From positions 24,953 through 88,952 of the IMG/VR virus record IMGVR_UViG_3300032278_002257: a DNA stretch of 64,000 nucleotides; one strand, given 5' to 3'. Shown one piece after another: positions 13,015 through 64,000 of the stretch; position 1 is the stretch's first letter, and each line of letters opens with the position of its first letter. The notes below the pieces were generated by a model. The model saw nothing but the letters and a program-made list of their open reading frames with translations, did not search any database and was not told the origin of the DNA. This DNA comes from a virus. The position numbers were made by a program, and so were the translations under genes.

Positions 13015-13623
13015 ATGAAAACATTTAAGAATCATTTAGTAGAATCTAGTTTATCGAGAGTTATGCATCATGTGAATAAAACTCCTAAGTTTGGTTTAAT
13101 ATCACCACATAGGCAGGAACATTCACCTGAAGAGAATGAAAAACGCTTTTCTGATTTAAAAAATCATGTTCGAAAACTTGGACATGGATATATTGAAATG
13201 AGAGGTGGTTATAAAGAAGAGGGAGGATTTGTTAAAGAAAAATCTCTTCTTATTCCTAATATTGAAAGAAAACACATGATGGGTTTAGGAAAAAAATATG
13301 ATCAACATTCAGTAATCCACAAAGAGAAAGATGATTTTTCACTTTTAGGAACAAATACTTCTCCAGGAAATTCTCATGGTAAAGTTCATGCAAATTTTAA
13401 TCATGGGGGCAAAAGTATTTCTGTTGATAATAGAGGAAACCAATTTCAAGATTTATTCTCAAAATTACATAAAGGCTCACACAGAGATAAAAAGTTTCTA
13501 TTAAAAATGAAAGAGGAATCTTTTGTTATGGAAGAAAAATTAGAAACAAGCATGTATTATAATAAATTACATGGTGAACAATGGCTTACAATCTTTGAAG
13601 GAAAGCCGAATGAAGCAATTTAA
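13015..13623 (+). CDS. Hypothetical protein with internal-head-protein-like N-terminus
   Basis: A 202-aa, basic, histidine- and glycine-rich soluble protein. It begins MKTFKNHLVES, the closest copy in this window to the T4 internal-protein leader (MKTYQEFIAEA), with L8-V9-E10 at the exact position of the T4 cleavage site. The body (for example 'SFLLGTNTSPGNSHGKVHANFNHGGKS'-like region at about 105-135, key NTSPGNSHGK) shows no family I can name. It is the first gene after a sigma70-type promoter and overlaps the kinase gene by 14 bp. Possible packaged, injected protein (inference). Confidence 0.62.
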   Translation: MKTFKNHLVESSLSRVMHHVNKTPKFGLISPHRQEHSPEENEKRFSDLKNHVRKLGHGYIEMRGGYKEEGGFVKEKSLLIPNIERKHMMGLGKKYDQHSVIHKEKDDFSLLGTNTSPGNSHGKVHANFNHGGKSISVDNRGNQFQDLFSKLHKGSHRDKKFLLKMKEESFVMEEKLETSMYYNKLHGEQWLTIFEGKPNEAI

Positions 13624-14806
13624 TGAATTCTTAATTGAAGGAATGTATGATCCTTCAATTTTTAAAGCAGTTTTCATGGCAGGAGGTCCTGGTTCTGGAA
13701 AGTCGTGGGTTGCCGGTCATTCAACAGCTGGACTAGGAATGAAGATTGTGAATTCAGATGAAATATATGAATTAAAATTAACATCTTCTGGATTGGGAAC
13801 AGACTTCACGAAATATACAGAAAAGGATTTCGAGAAATCTCAAGTGATTAGAGATAAGGCAAAATCCCTTACAAAAATGAGAATGAAACAATGGATGGAC
13901 GGAAGATTAGGTTTAATTGTAGATGGCACAGGCCATAAATTTGACAGACTTCAATCAGCATCAGAAGGATTGCGGGGGTTGGGTTATGATACAATGATGA
14001 TATTTGTTAATACATCATTAGATGTCGCTTTAAAAAGAAATAGTCGAAGACCTAGAAAATTAAGAGATGACATAGTAAAAAAGAGTTGGGAAAATGTTCA
14101 GTCAAATATAGGAAAATTTCAAGAATATTTTGGTGCTGATAAATTTATAATTGTTGATAATAATACTGAAACTGAAGCACGTGATCCATTTAGAAGTGTT
14201 TATAAAATATTAAAAAAAATAATACAGAAACCTGTAGAAAATTATAAAGCTAAAAAATGGATTGAAAGGGAAAAGAAATTAAAAAAATCTCAAACTTTTA
14301 AAGAATATTTTGAATTAGATGAATTTGATAATCCTCAAATTTATTGTGATATGGATGGAGTTGTAGCGGATTTTGATGCGGGAGTTAAGGAAATGATTGG
14401 TGGAAAGTTTAAAGATGAGCGTTGGGAGGAATTACCAGACGATTTTTTCTATAAATTACCACCAATGAAAGATGCGAAACGACTTTGGAATTTTATTGGT
14501 AAACTCAATCCCTTTATGCTTACAGCAATACCAACACATAAAAGGGGAAAAATCGCTGATAGGGCGGGAGCTGATAAGACAAAATGGATGCTAAAACATT
14601 TTAATGTTGAAAAAAATAGTATGAGAGCAGTTTCAAGACGTGATAAAAAACAATTTGCTAAAGATGGTAGAGATAGAAGACCCAATATTCTGATTGATGA
14701 TCATGAACAAAATATTGCAGAATTTAGAAAAGCGGGAGGAATAGGAATACATCATACCAGTGCAGCAAATACAATTAAACAACTTAAAGCGATAGGATTC
14801 AAATAA
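13610..14806 (+). CDS. P-loop kinase - HAD phosphatase fusion (Pnkp-like)
   Basis: A 398-aa two-domain enzyme, start chosen at ATG 13610 because a GAAGGAAAG site precedes it and the product then begins MKQFNEFLIEG, the window's capsid-targeting-like motif. The N-terminal domain is a kinase with Walker A G25-G-P-G-S-G-K-S32, 'NSDE' (48-51) and 'VDGTGHKFD' (104-112), as in polynucleotide kinase/zeta-type enzymes. The C-terminal domain is a HAD phosphatase with D247-M-D-G250 and 'LIDDHEQNI' near the end. The order kinase then phosphatase is that of T4 Pnkp, which repairs cut tRNA ends. The domain linker (227-238) holds a second TFKEYFELDE motif. Alternative role: deoxynucleotide kinase/5'-nucleotidase. 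Confidence 0.75.
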   Translation: MKQFNEFLIEGMYDPSIFKAVFMAGGPGSGKSWVAGHSTAGLGMKIVNSDEIYELKLTSSGLGTDFTKYTEKDFEKSQVIRDKAKSLTKMRMKQWMDGRLGLIVDGTGHKFDRLQSASEGLRGLGYDTMMIFVNTSLDVALKRNSRRPRKLRDDIVKKSWENVQSNIGKFQEYFGADKFIIVDNNTETEARDPFRSVYKILKKIIQKPVENYKAKKWIEREKKLKKSQTFKEYFELDEFDNPQIYCDMDGVVADFDAGVKEMIGGKFKDERWEELPDDFFYKLPPMKDAKRLWNFIGKLNPFMLTAIPTHKRGKIADRAGADKTKWMLKHFNVEKNSMRAVSRRDKKQFAKDGRDRRPNILIDDHEQNIAEFRKAGGIGIHHTSAANTIKQLKAIGFK

Positions 14807-26433: not shown

Positions 26434-27081
26434 ATGAAATTAATTACAGAAGTTTCTGAAGCATTAGAGTATGTTGCTGAAGAAGGAAAAGATGGAACAA
26501 CGAATTATAAAATTCGTGGAATCTTTATGCAAGCAGAACAGATGAATAGAAATAAAAGAACATATCCTCTTTCTGTTCTCGAAAGTGAAGTTAAGAGATA
26601 CAATAAAGAATATGTTAATAAAAATAGAGCATTTGGTGAATTAGGTCATCCTGACGGCCCTACTGTTAATTTAGATAGGGTTTCTCATATGATCACAAAG
26701 TTGGATCAAGAAAAAAATGATTTTGTTGGCGAAGCTAAAATTTTAAATACACCAAATGGTAAAATTGTCAGAGAACTTATTTCAGCGGGTGCTACACTTG
26801 GAGTATCTTCTAGAGGAATGGGATCTTTGACCCCTACACGGAATGGAAGCGTTGTAGGAAATGATTATTATCTGTCAACAGCAGGTGATATTGTCGCAGA
26901 CCCTTCTGCCCCCAATGCCTTCGTTGAAGGAATTATGGAAGGAAAAGAATGGGTTTGGGATAACGGCATAATTAAAGAAACAGAAATAGATAAATATAAG
27001 CAGAGTATTTTATCAGCTACAAGCGTTACTTTAGAAGAAGCTAAGCTAAATGCGTTTGCTGATTTTATTTCTAAGTTATAA
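26434..27081 (+). CDS. 21: Prohead core scaffold protease gp21
   Basis: Serine protease that matures the prohead, 215 aa (T4: 212). Catalytic elements are H72 in 'FGELGHPDGPTVNLDRVSH' and S125/S126 in 'LGVSSRGMGS', in the herpesvirus-assemblin-like order His...Ser. It would cleave after [LI]-x-E. Its own N-terminus, MKLITE, contains such a site, consistent with self-processing. Substrates would include gp22, gp23, gp67/68 and any packaged internal proteins bearing the motif. Confidence 0.95.
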   Translation: MKLITEVSEALEYVAEEGKDGTTNYKIRGIFMQAEQMNRNKRTYPLSVLESEVKRYNKEYVNKNRAFGELGHPDGPTVNLDRVSHMITKLDQEKNDFVGEAKILNTPNGKIVRELISAGATLGVSSRGMGSLTPTRNGSVVGNDYYLSTAGDIVADPSAPNAFVEGIMEGKEWVWDNGIIKETEIDKYKQSILSATSVTLEEAKLNAFADFISKL

Positions 27082-27156: not shown

Positions 27157-28410
27157 ATGGTAAAAGAAGAAACAACGGAAGCAGAAGTTCTCGAAGAAGG
27201 ACAGGCTGAAGCTGAAAATGAAGCTCCCGTAGAAGAGCTAGACGAAGCTCCTGCAGGGGTTCAAGATTTAGGTGGCGATGATCCAAATACGGGAAAAGCG
27301 AATAAACCCGATGCAGGAACGTCTCAATCACCATCCAGAAAAGCGGATAAAAGAAATCCAGAAAAAAAGCAACCAACTCAAGGAAATTCAGTAAAACCCG
27401 CACATGAAGAAAAGGAAGTGAAATCAAATACTAAAAATGGTATGATTGCACAAGTTTATGAAATGTTGAAGGGTATGAATAAGGATGAAATTTCCGAAAA
27501 ATTTGGATTAATTCAAGATTTAGTAGATTTAGATATTCAAGAATTAAATTCAACTGCTGATGCAGAAGCGGCAGAAGAAGATGTTGTTGCTGAAGCACAA
27601 GAAAAAATTCTTTATTCTCGAAAAGATCTTACCGCAGATGATATTGAACTCGATTCCAATGAGGATATTGAGGCAATGTCTGGTAAAGAAGAACTTTCAG
27701 ATGAATTTAAAGCGAAAGCTAAAGATATCTATGAAACAGCTGTAAAAGCTAAAGTAGTAGATGAAGTAAATAAGAGAGTTGAAAAAATCGAAGAAGAATA
27801 TCTCAACGAAATTGAAGATTCAACAAAGAAATTCCAAGGTGAAATGGTTGAAAAGGTAGACAACTATCTCAACTATGTCGTTACAGAATGGATGGAAGAC
27901 AATAACCTTGCGGTTGAGCGAGGGATTAAATCTGAATTAACAGACGATTTTATGACAGGTTTAAGAAATCTCTTTAAAGAACATTACATAGATGTTCCAG
28001 AAGAGAAAGTAGACATTGTGGATGACCTGTTTGATAAGGTCGAAGAACTTGAAAGTAAATTGAACGAAGAAATTGATAAAAACGTTTCTTTGAAAAAAGA
28101 CCTCGCAGAAGCTACAAAAGAAGGAATCTTGAGTGATGTTTGTGAAGATTTGGCAGACACACAAAAAGAAAAAATTTCCAGTTTAGCGGAAGGTGTAGAG
28201 TTTGAAAATGAAGACCAATTTAAAGCTAAATTAGCAATGCTAAAAGAATCATATTTTCCTCAAAAAGAAGTAGTTAAAAGTGAAGACGATGTCACTGAAA
28301 CAACTTTATCGACCGAGGAACTGAGTGAAGAAATTGAAGGTGTTCAAGCGGAAAAAAGAGATGCTCAAATGCAAGCATATCTTAATATGTTAGACACTAA
28401 AACTAAGTAA
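27157..28410 (+). CDS. 22: Prohead scaffold protein gp22
   Basis: Major scaffolding core protein, 417 aa, between protease and major capsid as in T4 but longer (T4: 269). It is highly acidic. The first ~110 residues are low-complexity Glu/Ala/Pro and then Lys-rich. The rest is long helix ('VKAKVVDEVNKRVEKIEEEYLNEI' region at about 190-215, key EVNKRVEKIEEEY) with the conserved 'VEKVDNYLNYVVTEWMEDN'-type segment near residue 235. Many [LI]-x-E sites allow complete digestion by gp21. Confidence 0.9.
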   Translation: MVKEETTEAEVLEEGQAEAENEAPVEELDEAPAGVQDLGGDDPNTGKANKPDAGTSQSPSRKADKRNPEKKQPTQGNSVKPAHEEKEVKSNTKNGMIAQVYEMLKGMNKDEISEKFGLIQDLVDLDIQELNSTADAEAAEEDVVAEAQEKILYSRKDLTADDIELDSNEDIEAMSGKEELSDEFKAKAKDIYETAVKAKVVDEVNKRVEKIEEEYLNEIEDSTKKFQGEMVEKVDNYLNYVVTEWMEDNNLAVERGIKSELTDDFMTGLRNLFKEHYIDVPEEKVDIVDDLFDKVEELESKLNEEIDKNVSLKKDLAEATKEGILSDVCEDLADTQKEKISSLAEGVEFENEDQFKAKLAMLKESYFPQKEVVKSEDDVTETTLSTEELSEEIEGVQAEKRDAQMQAYLNMLDTKTK

Positions 28411-28447: not shown

Positions 28448-29785
28448 ATGTATATTGCTGAAGAAATTCAAAAAAAGTGGGCACCTGTGATCAATCATCC
28501 TGATTTGGATGAGATTAAAGATCCTTATAAAAGACAGGTGACCGCTGTAATTTTAGAAAACCAAGAACGTATGATGCGCGAATCGCGTGGTGGTATGGGG
28601 CTCTTAGCGGAGTCAGGTCCTACTAATGTCATGGGTGCTTCCAGCTCTACAGCTGGAGATGGATCAGTAGATATCTACGATCCAGTACTTATTTCGTTGG
28701 TAAGACGTGCGATGCCTAACCTAGTTGCGTATGACGTTTGTGGTGTACAACCGATGACAGGACCTACCGGTCTTATTTTTGCGATGAGAGCAAGATATGC
28801 TACACAAGGTGGCGATGAGGCTCTCTTTAATGAAGCTAATACTTCATTTGGTTCAGCGAATACCAACGCAGCGAACACGCAAACCGGTGATAATCCTGCA
28901 GATTCTGGATATATGGCATATACCGGTATGTCAACAGCTAATGCAGAGACAAGAGGCGCAAATGATCCTCAAGTTGATGGTGACGCTATTCCAGAAATGG
29001 CTTTCTCAATCGAGAAGGTAACCGTAACCGCAGTAAGTAGAGCACTGAAAGGTGCATACTCAATGGAATTGGCACAAGACTTGAAAGCAATTCATGGTCT
29101 TGACGCTGAAACTGAATTGGCTAATATTCTTTCCGCTGAAATTTTGGCTGAAATTAATAGAGAAGTCATTCGTTCCATTGGCTCGTCAGCGAAACCTGGT
29201 GCAGCATATGGTACTGCAACCGCAGGTACTTTCGACTTAGACGTTGACTCTAACGGTAGATGGTCAGTTGAAAAATTTAAAGGTCTGATGTTCCAAATCG
29301 AACGTGAAGCTAATGCGATAGCAAAAGACACACGTAGAGGAAAAGGGAACATGATCATTTGTGCATCTGATGTTGCTTCGGCACTTCAAATGGCAGGTGT
29401 TCTAGACTACACTCCAGCGATGCAAACTGGAATTAACGTTGATGATACTGGTAATACTTTTGCTGGTGTTCTCAATGGTCGATTCAAAGTTTACATTGAT
29501 CCATTTGCGGCTAACCAAGCAACCAACTATATGATTGTTGGTTACAAAGGTTCTAGTCCTTATGATGCTGGACTTTTCTATTGTCCATATGTTCCACTGC
29601 AAATGGTAAGAGCAATTGGTGAAGATAACTTCCAGCCACGTATCGGGTTTAAAACTCGTTATGGTATGGTAGCTAATCCTTTCGCTACATCCGCCGCAGC
29701 TGGTGCAGTTGACATCGACGGTACACTCGGTGCGACTAACCAAAATGTGTATTACAGATTGGTCAAAGTTGCTAACTTGATGTAA
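28448..29785 (+). CDS. 23: Major capsid protein gp23
   Basis: HK97-fold major head protein, 445 aa, the usual size in marine T4-like phages (T4: 521). Landmarks are 'LLAESGPTNVMG' close to the expected gp21 cleavage region, 'GVQPMTGPTGLIFAMRARY', 'EMAFSIEKVTVTAVSRALK', 'VIRSIGSSAKPG' and 'PRIGFKTRYGMVANPF'. The gene uses visibly more G/C-ending codons than its neighbours, as expected for a very highly expressed gene. It is followed by the strongest terminator in the window. Confidence 0.97.
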   Translation: MYIAEEIQKKWAPVINHPDLDEIKDPYKRQVTAVILENQERMMRESRGGMGLLAESGPTNVMGASSSTAGDGSVDIYDPVLISLVRRAMPNLVAYDVCGVQPMTGPTGLIFAMRARYATQGGDEALFNEANTSFGSANTNAANTQTGDNPADSGYMAYTGMSTANAETRGANDPQVDGDAIPEMAFSIEKVTVTAVSRALKGAYSMELAQDLKAIHGLDAETELANILSAEILAEINREVIRSIGSSAKPGAAYGTATAGTFDLDVDSNGRWSVEKFKGLMFQIEREANAIAKDTRRGKGNMIICASDVASALQMAGVLDYTPAMQTGINVDDTGNTFAGVLNGRFKVYIDPFAANQATNYMIVGYKGSSPYDAGLFYCPYVPLQMVRAIGEDNFQPRIGFKTRYGMVANPFATSAAAGAVDIDGTLGATNQNVYYRLVKVANLM

Positions 29786-36721: not shown

Positions 36722-36911
36722 ATTAAAATTCTCTTTAGAAAATAACTGGAAATGGATGGCTAAAGATGAAGACGGGTCTGTTACAGTTTTTAATAAAAAA
36801 CCAAATTTAATAGATGGGGTTTGGGATAGTTTAGGAGAGTTTAAAGTTCTCACTCATCCCAATTCAGGATCACTGTTAGCTAATTGGGAAGATTCACTCA
36901 TACCAATTTAG
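36687..36911 (+). CDS. Small hypothetical protein
   Basis: A 74-aa soluble protein with several tryptophans (ENNWKWMAKDEDG, IDGVWDSLGEF, LANWEDS), suggesting a small beta domain. The ATG follows ATGAGGTCAA. The TAG stop shares its final G with the first base of the tRNA-Ala. Function unknown. Confidence 0.5.
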   Translation: MENLQEENKIIELKFSLENNWKWMAKDEDGSVTVFNKKPNLIDGVWDSLGEFKVLTHPNSGSLLANWEDSLIPI

Positions 36912-36986
36912 GGGCTGTAGCTCAACTGGGAGAGCGCATCCCTTGCACGGATGAGGTAGCAGGTTCGATCCCTGTCAGCTCCACCA
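36911..36986 (+). tRNA. tRNA-Ala (UGC)
   Basis: A full cloverleaf: acceptor GGGGCTG pairs with CAGCTCC (one G-U), D arm GCTC...GAGC, anticodon stem CATCC/GGATG around loop CTTGCAC (anticodon TGC), T arm GCAGG-TTCGATC-CCTGT, discriminator A and encoded CCA (36984-36986). The first G is also the last base of the upstream stop codon. It is the only tRNA found in the window. It reads GCA/GCG-family alanine codons, useful where phage virion genes are Ala-rich compared with an AT-rich host. Confidence 0.95.
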
Positions 36987-60377: not shown

Positions 60378-62393
60378 ATGCCACAATCATTTAATCAATT
60401 TATAAGGGAAGAGTCAGGCCCTTATATAGATAAAGACTCCAAATCAAAAGACCCACACGCATATCATGTAGATCAACATGCCCATCACACAAAGCAGCAA
60501 AAAGATAAGAAACATCAAGGATTTAAACAATTAAGAAGAGGTGTAATATATAAAAGTAATAGTGGTTCTTGGGTTGGTGTTAAAAATGGTGAAAATAAAA
60601 GAGAATATTTTAATGATGCAATCCATGCTACAGCTTGGGTTAATGGAACTCATCCGACAGGTGGTGAAGAAATTCAAAAATTAGATAGAAAAACCCAACA
60701 GAAAGATGATAAAGCTGAGAAACATGGTTATAGTAAAGATGAAGTCCCACACGATTTTCGACATCCCTCTGAATCAAAAAAGAAAAGAGTAAAATCTGAC
60801 ACTCAAAATGCAAAATCTGTAGTTACAAAATCAGAGAAAAAACCAACAGTAAAAGAAAAAACATCCGATCAAAAAAATAAACATAGACAAACTGAAACAG
60901 TAAGTATTGAAGATGCACAAAATAGTGATAGAGTGAATGAACCAATTGGTAAAGGAAAAGACTTAGAAGAATTTTTAGGTAATGTTAAATTTGCCACTCA
61001 GGGCCCTCCACCAGATAGATTTAAAATTCCAGATAATTTGCGTGGAAAAAAAGTGTCTCCTAGAGTTTTTGATCTTATTGAAAGAATGGCAAATTGTGAA
61101 GCCTCTGGTGCGGCGTCAGGAAAATATCAGAATTATTCAGATGTTAAGGGCGGTGCTGGTAAAATCTTTGCTCAAGCGGGAGAATTGATGACAATGGCTA
61201 TGACAACAATGGATGATAAAGATGCTGATCAATTTAGAGATGTTTTAAAAAAATATAATAAAGATTTAGAAGACACATACCCTGATTATAAAAAAGATAA
61301 GAAGGGGAAGATAAAAAGGAAAAAAGTAATTGATGATTCTTGGGTTGATGCGGCACACGGAAATAGAAAAGCAATATTTAATTATTTGAAAAAAGAACAT
61401 GGAGAAGGTTCTGAAATAGAGTTTGGTTGTTGGGATACAAAAGAAGATGTTGAGGCTATGTGGGGTGAAGGTTATGATGAAAATAAAGGGTATTCAACAG
61501 ATGTTTTTTTCAGAGTTAAAGGAAAGGGCGGCAGTTTTCTTCATGAAGTTTCATTAAAAAAATCTACACTTGTAAACTTTTTAAATTCTGGTACAGGAAA
61601 ATTTGAAGCTTGGGATGACCAGTTACCAGACCCCATTAAAGCATCTTTATTTGGGGAAAATCAAAGAAATAGATTAGTAGAGGCGGTAACTAAACATTTT
61701 GATAAAATTAATCCCAATGAACCACCTTTATCAGACTTAATGAAGTCAAAAAAAGTTAGTGATTTAAAAGAACTGATAACAAACAAGAAAGAGGGCGGAA
61801 AGTGGGATTTAACTAGAGATAAATCAAAAGTATTGTTGACAGCATTAAATCAAGTAGCGAAGGCTGGTGATGGAGAAGCTAAACAATTTCTTAAAGAACA
61901 TAGACAAGTTAGCCAAGATTATCAAGATGCGGCAATAACGGCTATACTAGAAAATCCTAAATTAACAGAAGGAATGATGACTGATATCAAAGGTAATTTT
62001 CCATTGAAGGGCGTTTCTGAAAGAGAAGAAGTTATGGCAATTGGGGATCTTTCTTTAGATCCACATACAATGAAACATATATTTGGTACAGATGATTATA
62101 GTAAAATAAGTGAACGTTTTGAACCATTGAAAGATGAAAAAGGAAACCCTTATATTGGATATAATGTTGAAGGTTCAAAAGAAGTTATTCCTGTTGCAGG
62201 TATTGGAATTAGAGAAGATGGGAATGGATATGGTGGACAATTTAAATTTGAAATGGTATTACACAAAGGTTTTGCTGAACATCTAAAGAATGCTAATGAC
62301 GCAATTTATGGAAATAAAAAACAAGATGAACAGGTTAAATATAAATCTATAGCACACGGTATTCATGAAATCCTTCAAACAAATAATACATGA
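60378..62393 (+). CDS. Large His/Lys-rich protein with nuclease-like core
   Basis: A 671-aa protein. The N-terminus MPQSFNQFIREES is a variant of the head-targeting-like motif, with I9-R-E11. Residues ~10-200 are low-complexity, His/Lys/Gln-rich. The C-terminal two thirds are a folded region with 'VDAAHGNRKAIFNYLKKEHGEG', a D375 in 'STDVFF' and 'HEVSLKKS' (E390, K394), spaced like the D...E-x-K core of PD-(D/E)XK nucleases, though the motif is imperfect. It overlaps the CCA-enzyme gene by 29 bp. Likely packaged in or attached to the virion (inference). Confidence 0.6.
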   Translation: MPQSFNQFIREESGPYIDKDSKSKDPHAYHVDQHAHHTKQQKDKKHQGFKQLRRGVIYKSNSGSWVGVKNGENKREYFNDAIHATAWVNGTHPTGGEEIQKLDRKTQQKDDKAEKHGYSKDEVPHDFRHPSESKKKRVKSDTQNAKSVVTKSEKKPTVKEKTSDQKNKHRQTETVSIEDAQNSDRVNEPIGKGKDLEEFLGNVKFATQGPPPDRFKIPDNLRGKKVSPRVFDLIERMANCEASGAASGKYQNYSDVKGGAGKIFAQAGELMTMAMTTMDDKDADQFRDVLKKYNKDLEDTYPDYKKDKKGKIKRKKVIDDSWVDAAHGNRKAIFNYLKKEHGEGSEIEFGCWDTKEDVEAMWGEGYDENKGYSTDVFFRVKGKGGSFLHEVSLKKSTLVNFLNSGTGKFEAWDDQLPDPIKASLFGENQRNRLVEAVTKHFDKINPNEPPLSDLMKSKKVSDLKELITNKKEGGKWDLTRDKSKVLLTALNQVAKAGDGEAKQFLKEHRQVSQDYQDAAITAILENPKLTEGMMTDIKGNFPLKGVSEREEVMAIGDLSLDPHTMKHIFGTDDYSKISERFEPLKDEKGNPYIGYNVEGSKEVIPVAGIGIREDGNGYGGQFKFEMVLHKGFAEHLKNANDAIYGNKKQDEQVKYKSIAHGIHEILQTNNT

Positions 62394-63996
62394 AAATGAT
62401 CTTGCGGCAACACTTTCTACTGATGTAAGAAATGCGGTCAAACGAGGTGGCGGTAAGATATATCAAATTGGTGGTGCGGTAAGAGATGAAATTTTAGGAA
62501 AAGTATCAAAAGATTTAGATCTTTTAGTGGTTGGAATAGAATTAGAGACTTTGGGTAAAATCTTGCAACCATTTGGAAAGGTAAATCTAGTTGGAAAATC
62601 TTTTGGTATTATTAAGTATACTCCAGAAGGTGGTTCTGGAGAGATTGATATTTCAATTCCTAGAATAGATTCAAAGAGTACGGGAAAAGGACATAAGGAT
62701 TTTGAAGTCAAATTAGGAAAGGGAATTACACTTCAACAAGATCAATTAAGAAGAGATTTTTGGATTAATGCTCTTGCAAAAGATTTAGACACAGGAAAAG
62801 TAATTGATATAGGTCGAAAAGGTATGACGGATTTGAAGAAAAAGGAAATCCGTATGATTAGTCCAGTTGCATTTGAAGAAGATCCATTGAGAATGTTGCG
62901 TGCGGTACAGTTTGCGGCAAGATTTGAATTTAAGATTGAATCAAAAACATTTGAAGAAATAAAGAAAAATGCAAAGTCCATATCAACAGTTTCAGCAGAG
63001 AGATTTCAAGAAGAGTTTCGTAAGATGTTTACTAAAGCAGAGAAACCTAGTATTGGAATTAAATTATTATTTGATACAGGATTAATTGATCATATTTTAC
63101 CACAATCAAATTTAAGAAAAATTGATCTTGCATCAATTGATAAACTTGATAAAAAAGCATTTCCCGCATTTATGGGAATGTTAATGAATGGATATGGTTC
63201 AAATGCAGGAAAAGAGGTTATAAGTAAAATGAGATTATCAAATAATGATGCTGAAGCAGTTCAAAGTGTAGTCACATATACAGATAACTCTCCATTTTTA
63301 GAAAAAAATGATTTTAAACTTGTCCAATTTATAAAAAATGTTGATAATAAAGGTATCGCAAATATAGATGAATATTTAAAGGTAAAGAATAGACCTACTC
63401 TTTCTAGTAGACTTAGAAGAATGACGGTGACATCAATTAAAGATCTTTCAATTGGAGGAAGAGATTTAATGGGAATAGGACTGAAAGGGATACAAGTAGG
63501 AGATGCTCTCAACCACGCTCTTGAATTTGCAGTTAAAACTGGTAAAAATAATAAATTAGAATTATTGAGAGCAATCAAAAACAAATATAACATTAGAGAA
63601 GAGGTCAAGGTTGAAAGTGTTTTGAAGTATATGTTATCTTCAAAAGATATGGGAGCATTATCAAAAATGAGAGATAGTGTTGTGACGAAAAATTCAGATA
63701 TGAAACCAATAAAAGATTTACATATAACTCTTGCATCTGGGCCTGAATGGAAAAAATTGAGAAAGAGATTATTTCATAATTCTTTACCAGACCCAAATTT
63801 TAAATTAGAGTTTGAAAAACCAAAGAAAGTGAAGTTTGGTGGAAGAGTATCGTGGTATACGAAAGTAAAACAGCAAAAACAACTCAAGGATTATGTTACT
63901 GATTTAATACAAGCAAATCCAGATCCTAAGAGAATTTTTCATGTATCACTTGCAAATAAAACAGGTAATTCAGGAGATTCAGTTGCGAACATTTAA
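62365..63996 (+). CDS. CCA tRNA nucleotidyltransferase with 2H-like C-terminal domain
   Basis: A 543-aa enzyme of the CCA-adding/poly(A) polymerase family. After an N-terminal MKSFKQIIHEN (head-targeting-like motif, I8-H-E10), the nucleotidyltransferase core has G36-G-A-V-R-D41, D50-L-D52 metal ligands, 'FWINALAKDL', 'EDPLRMLRAVQFAARF' and 'SAERFQEEF', so it should repair tRNA 3' ends. The ~95-residue C-terminus has H453-x-T-x and H526-x-S-x, 73 residues apart, the catalytic pair of 2H phosphoesterases, which open or remove 2',3'-cyclic phosphates. The start lies within the previous gene. Confidence 0.8.
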   Translation: MKSFKQIIHENDLAATLSTDVRNAVKRGGGKIYQIGGAVRDEILGKVSKDLDLLVVGIELETLGKILQPFGKVNLVGKSFGIIKYTPEGGSGEIDISIPRIDSKSTGKGHKDFEVKLGKGITLQQDQLRRDFWINALAKDLDTGKVIDIGRKGMTDLKKKEIRMISPVAFEEDPLRMLRAVQFAARFEFKIESKTFEEIKKNAKSISTVSAERFQEEFRKMFTKAEKPSIGIKLLFDTGLIDHILPQSNLRKIDLASIDKLDKKAFPAFMGMLMNGYGSNAGKEVISKMRLSNNDAEAVQSVVTYTDNSPFLEKNDFKLVQFIKNVDNKGIANIDEYLKVKNRPTLSSRLRRMTVTSIKDLSIGGRDLMGIGLKGIQVGDALNHALEFAVKTGKNNKLELLRAIKNKYNIREEVKVESVLKYMLSSKDMGALSKMRDSVVTKNSDMKPIKDLHITLASGPEWKKLRKRLFHNSLPDPNFKLEFEKPKKVKFGGRVSWYTKVKQQKQLKDYVTDLIQANPDPKRIFHVSLANKTGNSGDSVANI

Positions 63997-64000
63997 ACAA
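63983..64000 (+). CDS. Start of another head-targeting-motif gene (truncated by window edge)
   Basis: TTG at 63983 with a CAGGAG ribosome site 7 bases upstream begins a frame reading M-R-T-F-K-Q up to the last base, overlapping the CCA-enzyme stop by 14 bp. The residues match the recurrent MKTFK motif, so another member of this protein group probably starts here. Confidence 0.5.

Follow-up and report, generated by a model that had tools for sequence, protein, structure and literature searches.

On balance, we consider it probable, with modest confidence, that the protein described here, a CCA-adding enzyme fused to a 2H phosphoesterase domain, is a head-packaged, injected tRNA 3′-end healing enzyme of a T4-like marine phage; the packaging and the substrate are both what we infer. 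Its gene is complete inside the window (the whole 64,000-nucleotide stretch of DNA that was analysed) and lies at the end of the 88,952-base IMG/VR record. A 100% identical record, L001 (G001), continues for ~35–36 kb downstream of the window. The features on which the argument draws are listed in Table 1.

Table 1. Features of the CCA–2H gene, its neighbours and the head genes (window positions)
Feature	Position	Strand	Details
CCA-adding enzyme + 2H phosphoesterase domain fusion	62365..63996	+	543 aa, ATG to TAA
Capsid-targeting-like N-terminus MKSFKQIIHE, residues 1–10 (F4, I7, I8, E10)	62365..62394	+	predicted prohead-protease cut after E10
Class II nucleotidyltransferase head domain (GGAVRD, KDLD, RRDFW)	62461..62853	+	Pfam PF01743, E 1.1e-18
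PolyA_pol_RNAbd domain	62929..63105	+	Pfam PF12627, E 4.4e-16
I410-R411-E412/E413, possible internal prohead-protease site	63592..63603	+	[I/M]-x-E/[E/Q] in fused relatives
2H phosphoesterase domain, residues 413–543	63601..63993	+	AF2 pLDDT 89; Foldseek
HITL, first H-x-T motif (H453, T455)	63721..63732	+	H, T invariant in 19 homologues
HVSL, second H-x-S motif (H526, S528)	63940..63951	+	H, S invariant in 19 homologues
Upstream gene, capsid-targeting-like MPQSFNQFIRE	60378..62393	+	671 aa
Next overlapping gene, TTG start, runs off window	63983..64000	+	LRTFKQHLKE in L001, capsid-targeting-like
gp21-type prohead core protease (would cut tags)	26434..27081	+	Pfam Peptidase_S77, 1.8e-35
gp22-type scaffolding core protein (would bind tags)	27157..28410	+	Pfam T4_CASP, 1.9e-69
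gp23-type major capsid protein	28448..29785	+	PHROG major head protein, 4.5e-159
MKQFNEFLIE + P-loop kinase + HAD 5′-nucleotidase, Pnkp-like layout, capsid-targeting-like	13610..14806	+

The CCA-adding enzyme part

Residues 31–406 form a CCA-adding enzyme, with Pfam matches to PolyA_pol (1e-18) and PolyA_pol_RNAbd (4e-16), and residues 23–406 matched the NCBIfam CCA tRNA nucleotidyltransferase at 6.5e-41, below the equivalog cut-off. Specificity for CCA is predicted from the NCBIfam scores for this part, although the margin over the PcnB model (2.6e-32) is not decisive. The head-domain motifs GGAVRD, KDLD and RRDFW were invariant or nearly so in 11 homologues, and the residues expected of a class II CCA head domain (GG-V-RD, D50/D52, RRD and D173/R176) were invariant in all of them. 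The CCA enzyme part retains its catalytic motifs.

The tail adopts a predicted 2H phosphoesterase fold

The original prediction, made from the sequence alone, had noticed HITL and HVSL 73 residues apart in the C-terminal domain and had proposed a 2H phosphoesterase fused to a CCA enzyme. Both motifs are present at that spacing, at residues 453 (63721) and 526 (63940). Their histidines proved to be conserved: H453, T455, H526 and S528 were invariant in 19 diverged homologues, with identity down to ~30%. In shuffled tails, two H-h-[TS]-h motifs at a spacing of 50–110 residues arose in 0.03% of cases, and we regard the pair as beyond chance because the His and Thr/Ser residues are invariant across homologues this diverged.

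The fold was likewise borne out by structure prediction. The AF2 model of the domain had a pLDDT of 89 and a pTM of 0.82, and the top 14 Foldseek matches in the PDB were all 2H enzymes, 12 of them with a probability of 0.66–1.00. These included Usb1 (1.00), the MHV phosphodiesterase ns2 (1.00), Acb1 (0.97) and LigT (0.96), and no non-2H fold exceeded a probability of 0.11 in this search. The best PDB match had an E-value of 7e-3, with TM scores of about 0.45–0.54; such modest values are as expected, since the 2H matches are distant relatives. In BFVD, the best match was a ‘Swiss Army Knife 2H phosphoesterase’ (E 7e-5). The tail gave no confident Pfam or PHROG match. Some of its relatives weakly matched the 2_5_RNA_ligase2, HVSL and LigT profiles (best E 0.006–0.02), in agreement with the 2H assignment, and the window's own domain matched none of these named 2H families. 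On the strength of the model, the tail folds as a 2H phosphoesterase and retains the whole H-x-T/H-x-S tetrad, and its activity is predicted. Together with the CCA matches, this fold supports the proposed fusion.

The 2H domain is recurrently coupled to CCA-adding enzymes

Relatives of the tail were found at 38 loci in IMG/VR. No relative was found in 50,697 cultured-phage records at E<=0.01, and in cellular genomes the domain appeared on two MAG contigs only. Among the 38 contigs, the 2H domain was fused to the CCA enzyme in 11, lay directly after it as a separate ORF in nine, and was within 4 kb of it in one. The other 17 had no CCA gene nearby; several of these contigs end early. In L010–L013, the C-terminus of the CCA enzyme is a different domain with its own H-x-T pair (HVTV, HITI), which matched PF08302, the fungal tRNA-ligase CPDase, at 1.3e-4 (22 bits; the Pfam cut-off is 23). 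A single-sequence comparison gave no detectable homology between this domain and that of the window, and no further relatives of the L010-type domain were found in IMG/VR. Both the window protein and the fungal CPDase would represent 2H-type RNA-end healing, with the L010–L013 domain just under the PF08302 cut-off, whereas the window's own 2H domain is not matched by that model.

Bacterial CCA enzymes with an HD domain clear 2′,3′-cyclic phosphates off tRNA 3′ ends (PMC10673834). By analogy, the 2H domain appears to be an alternative fold for the step done by the HD domain of the E. coli CCA enzyme. As in E. coli Cca and M. tuberculosis Rv3907c (PMC10673834), CCA addition and, by prediction here, 2′,3′-cyclic-phosphate clearing would be combined in one polypeptide; the window protein differs in having a C-terminal 2H domain in place of HD, as well as a capsid-targeting-like leader.

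The original prediction had offered two functions, tRNA 3′-end healing or degradation of cyclic-nucleotide alarm signals in the manner of Acb1. Coupling to the CCA enzyme makes the first the better of the two. In the second, the domain would degrade a host alarm nucleotide, as Acb1 does with CBASS signals, and the CCA fusion would be incidental. Acb1 is indeed among the fold matches, at a probability of 0.97, and the spacing of 73 residues is near the 69 that separate H44 and H113 in Acb1. However, Usb1 and ns2 rank above it, and the Pfam Acb1 model (PF23474), which found T4 57B (Acb1) at 2.7e-60 as a positive control, gave no match to any of the 19 members of the 2H family at E<=1. An hhalign comparison of the family with T4 Acb1 gave a probability of 1%, and on these two results we rejected the domain as an Acb1 member. 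The repeated coupling to CCA enzymes, including that of the second 2H-type domain, points to RNA ends instead. We therefore judge an alarm-nucleotide substrate very improbable. The domain has the Acb1 fold in common but, by profile comparison, belongs to another family: the two are phage-encoded and have similar motif spacing, and the window domain differs in escaping the Acb1 model, in the Ser of its second motif and in its fusion to a CCA enzyme. The Pycsar-like effector that, for the original prediction, made this alternative notable was not recovered, none appearing among the ten window ORFs tested against PADLOC.

A different substrate altogether could also be imagined, either through Usb1-like RNA 3′ trimming or as ADP-ribose 1″,2″-cyclic phosphate within a network of NAD/ADP-ribose metabolism. 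The PDB match ranked first is Usb1, the cluster contains a cytidylyltransferase/NMNAT-like gene (a HIGH-type nucleotidyltransferase), and RNase roles were proposed by Iyer et al. for the 2H domains of injected polyvalent proteins on the ground that they never observed these domains alongside RNA ligases (PMC5512222). Against this, fusion to the CCA enzyme and direct adjacency to it are most simply explained by tRNA 3′-end healing, and we consider these other substrates improbable.

A capsid-targeting-like leader on the CCA–2H protein

Three features escaped the original prediction: an N-terminus resembling a capsid-targeting sequence, a surrounding cluster of cargo-like genes and, between the two domains, a possible protease site. 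The N-terminal MKSFKQIIHE matches MKTYQEFIAE of T4 IPII/IPIII in register. In T4 IPIII, capsid targeting is driven by residues 4 and 7 and gp21 processing by residues 8 and 10 (PMC9026906). Nine relatives with a fused or adjacent 2H domain were compared, the L010 type being counted as 2H-like; in all nine, F4 and E10 were invariant and position 8 was I, L or V, with variable flanks. The CCA-only relatives L017–L021 have no leader, and 2H proteins encoded as separate ORFs often have none of their own (MIKVESILKW).

Across the window, the 25 kb upstream and 36 kb of the identical record downstream, the leader pattern occurred at 10 of 142 gene starts and at 1 of 1263 internal start codons (Fisher p 8e-10), a contrast that is indicative rather than exact because gene starts were called mechanically: a start codon anywhere within the first 60 residues was accepted, which gave each gene more opportunities to match than a control counted codon by codon. 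Applied to T4 as a positive control, the pattern found ipII and ipIII, and it occurred in 1 of 82 ORFs in another T4 stretch. On these results, the CCA–2H protein bears an N-terminal leader of the T4 type, with a predicted role in targeting. The likeness to T4 IPI–IPIII and Alt lies in the aromatic residue at position 4, hydrophobic residues at 7 and 8 and Glu at 10 (IPII, IPIII), and in the T4-type gp21, gp22 and gp23 encoded in the same window. T4 head cargoes are restriction inhibitors and an ADP-ribosyltransferase, whereas the candidate cargo here is an RNA-repair enzyme.

The leader gene is one of a run that extends from 60378 through L001, with the 671-aa protein and the CCA–2H protein followed by genes beginning LRTFKQHLKE, MITFSQYLEE, MKTFKTYLKE, MKTFKNHLIE and MKTYKNLIKE, the last being the cytidylyltransferase. 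A DUF6267 protein (MKSFINILLGE; L001 10180–11412) lies within the same run. The leader motif sits on proteins of unrelated fold within one cluster. The cytidyltransferase of cyanophage S-SM1 (SSM1_190, T4-GC190) starts with MKKFSAFLNE and is encoded a few genes after gp41. T4-GC190 was found in purified S-SM1 virions (PMC3037559). This virion support comes by homology, from one homologue of a neighbour and not from the CCA–2H protein itself.

The same healing enzyme might instead be made in the infected cell and stay unpackaged, its N-terminal motif being either an ordinary helix or a leader that these proteins share for some other purpose. The cluster lies after the replication genes uvsX/gp41 and has no clear T4-type late promoter within the window; moreover, in jumbo phages CCA enzymes are encoded by ordinary genes, and that of CBB, at 371 aa, lacks this N-terminal extension. 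Yet the motif retains exactly the T4 targeting and cleavage residues, it recurs on unrelated folds in one cluster, and a motif-bearing relative of one neighbour is a detected virion protein. We consider an unpackaged enzyme unlikely.

A possible protease site between the two domains

Fused relatives keep a Glu at the border between the CCA and 2H parts (slash), where the sequences are I-R-E/E, I-K-E/E, M-T-E/Q, I-T-E/E, I-N-E/E and M-N-E/E, to which L008 adds a further I-K-E/E, read by eye. To our knowledge, Met at P3 is not typical of T4. Stand-alone 2H proteins can have a leader of their own that ends in E/Q, as in MKSFKKYIAE/QVEAESILKYY (L043) and GFKNFLKE/QVEVES (L036–L041). The gp21 of T4 processes Alt both at ITE-6 and, close to the C-terminal end, at LTE-619 (PMC5694885). 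Since the junction Glu is kept as in the stand-alone leaders, and in view of the double cut of Alt by gp21, the CCA–2H fusion may be a polyprotein that is separated in the prohead. We offer this tentatively, given the untypical Met at P3 and the relatedness of the sequences.

In two other loci (L009 4162–4935 and L016 7202–7969), the 2H domain is followed by VEEFITE or VEEYITE and then by a second, unrelated domain, possibly another protease-cut fusion. The linker SQTFKEYFELDE, ahead of the HAD part of the kinase–phosphatase protein at 13610–14806, resembles a buried leader, like the CCA/2H junction.

Proposed pathway and relation to known systems

For a packaged healing enzyme, we propose that residues 1–10 would bind the scaffolding core as a capsid-targeting sequence and that the gp21-type protease would trim the leader after E10 during head maturation; it may also cut between E412 and E413, separating the two enzymes. 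The product would then enter the host with the phage DNA. There, the 2H domain would open 2′,3′-cyclic phosphate (or related) ends of tRNAs that host defence RNases have damaged, the CCA enzyme would rebuild the 3′ CCA on ends fit for extension, and translation would thereby be kept going from the first minutes after infection. On its own, a 2H enzyme leaves a 2′-phosphate, so a phosphatase step or ligation must come next, the former perhaps being provided by the HAD domain of the kinase–phosphatase cargo. Relatives of this kinase lie near CCA/2H genes in other phages, and near the 2H gene in 14 of the 38 contigs. T4-type RNA ligase families were not found in the related records, which are fragments only, and one control also gave no match. 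We count against a packaged healing enzyme the 17 of 38 2H contigs with no CCA gene nearby, the leaderless CCA-only relatives, the frequent lack of a leader on separately encoded 2H proteins, the want of a clear late promoter and the negative search for RNA-ligase families.

More tentatively, the heads of T4-like marine phages may carry an RNA-repair kit comprising the CCA enzyme, the 2H domain, the Pnkp-like kinase–phosphatase and the ligase-like DUF6267 protein, all capsid-targeted, some fused head to tail and protease-cut, and injected to pre-empt tRNA-cleaving immunity before phage gene expression. We hold this broader proposal to be somewhat unlikely.

Earlier work describes phage CCA enzymes as well as 2H enzymes in RNA repair (PMC7824862), and also injected multi-domain proteins with 2H domains (PMC5512222). 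Neither a CCA–2H fusion nor a T4-type leader on an RNA-repair enzyme was found in the open-licence PMC literature searched. Phage and plasmid polyvalent proteins (Iyer et al. 2017, PMC5512222) are likewise multi-domain, predicted to be injected and with 2H among their parts; unlike them, the window protein has two domains only, a T4-type leader and a CCA partner.

If the CCA–2H protein is indeed delivered from the head, it would act before host tRNA-cleaving effectors win, as a pre-emptive counter-defence at the protein level. Phage tRNA repair as it is known from T4, through Pnkp and RNA ligase, comes into play once infection has begun. The internal proteins of marine T4-like phages, an abundant group, for the most part lack annotation, and the leader would also serve as an easy sequence criterion by which their head cargoes could be catalogued. 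It yields a prediction open to testing, namely that reporters with these ten residues should enter T4-type heads.

Other genes of the region

DUF6267 proteins share an invariant KWDG-[AS]-P together with further ligase-like motifs, and most of 81 relatives begin like MKFTEFLTE. No paper naming DUF6267 was found in the open-licence PMC literature searched. Despite KWDGAP, LQGDMMF, EGFVAVD and AVKLVDR, an assignment as RNA ligase was rejected, and the protein is no more than a lead: AF2 modelled it poorly (pLDDT 65), Foldseek was uninformative, and there was neither a PDB profile match nor an hhalign signal with T4 RnlB.

The gene at 13015–13623 has an MKTFKNHLVE leader and matches DUF3293 (7.8e-10) and S-AdoMet lyase (2e-6, 28.2 bits; cut-off 28). 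Its product is possibly a head-packaged, SAM-depleting anti-restriction protein. At L001 8092–9953 are two paralogues with FHV...SISAF segments, one of them leader-bearing, with relatives near the 2H gene in 16 of the 38 contigs; they had no database match and are possibly ADP-ribosyltransferase-like. Upstream of the window (L030–L031, record positions 1–25500), several consecutive ORFs carry radical-SAM-like cysteine clusters. The only tRNA gene found in the window is a tRNA-Ala (tgc) at 36911–36986.
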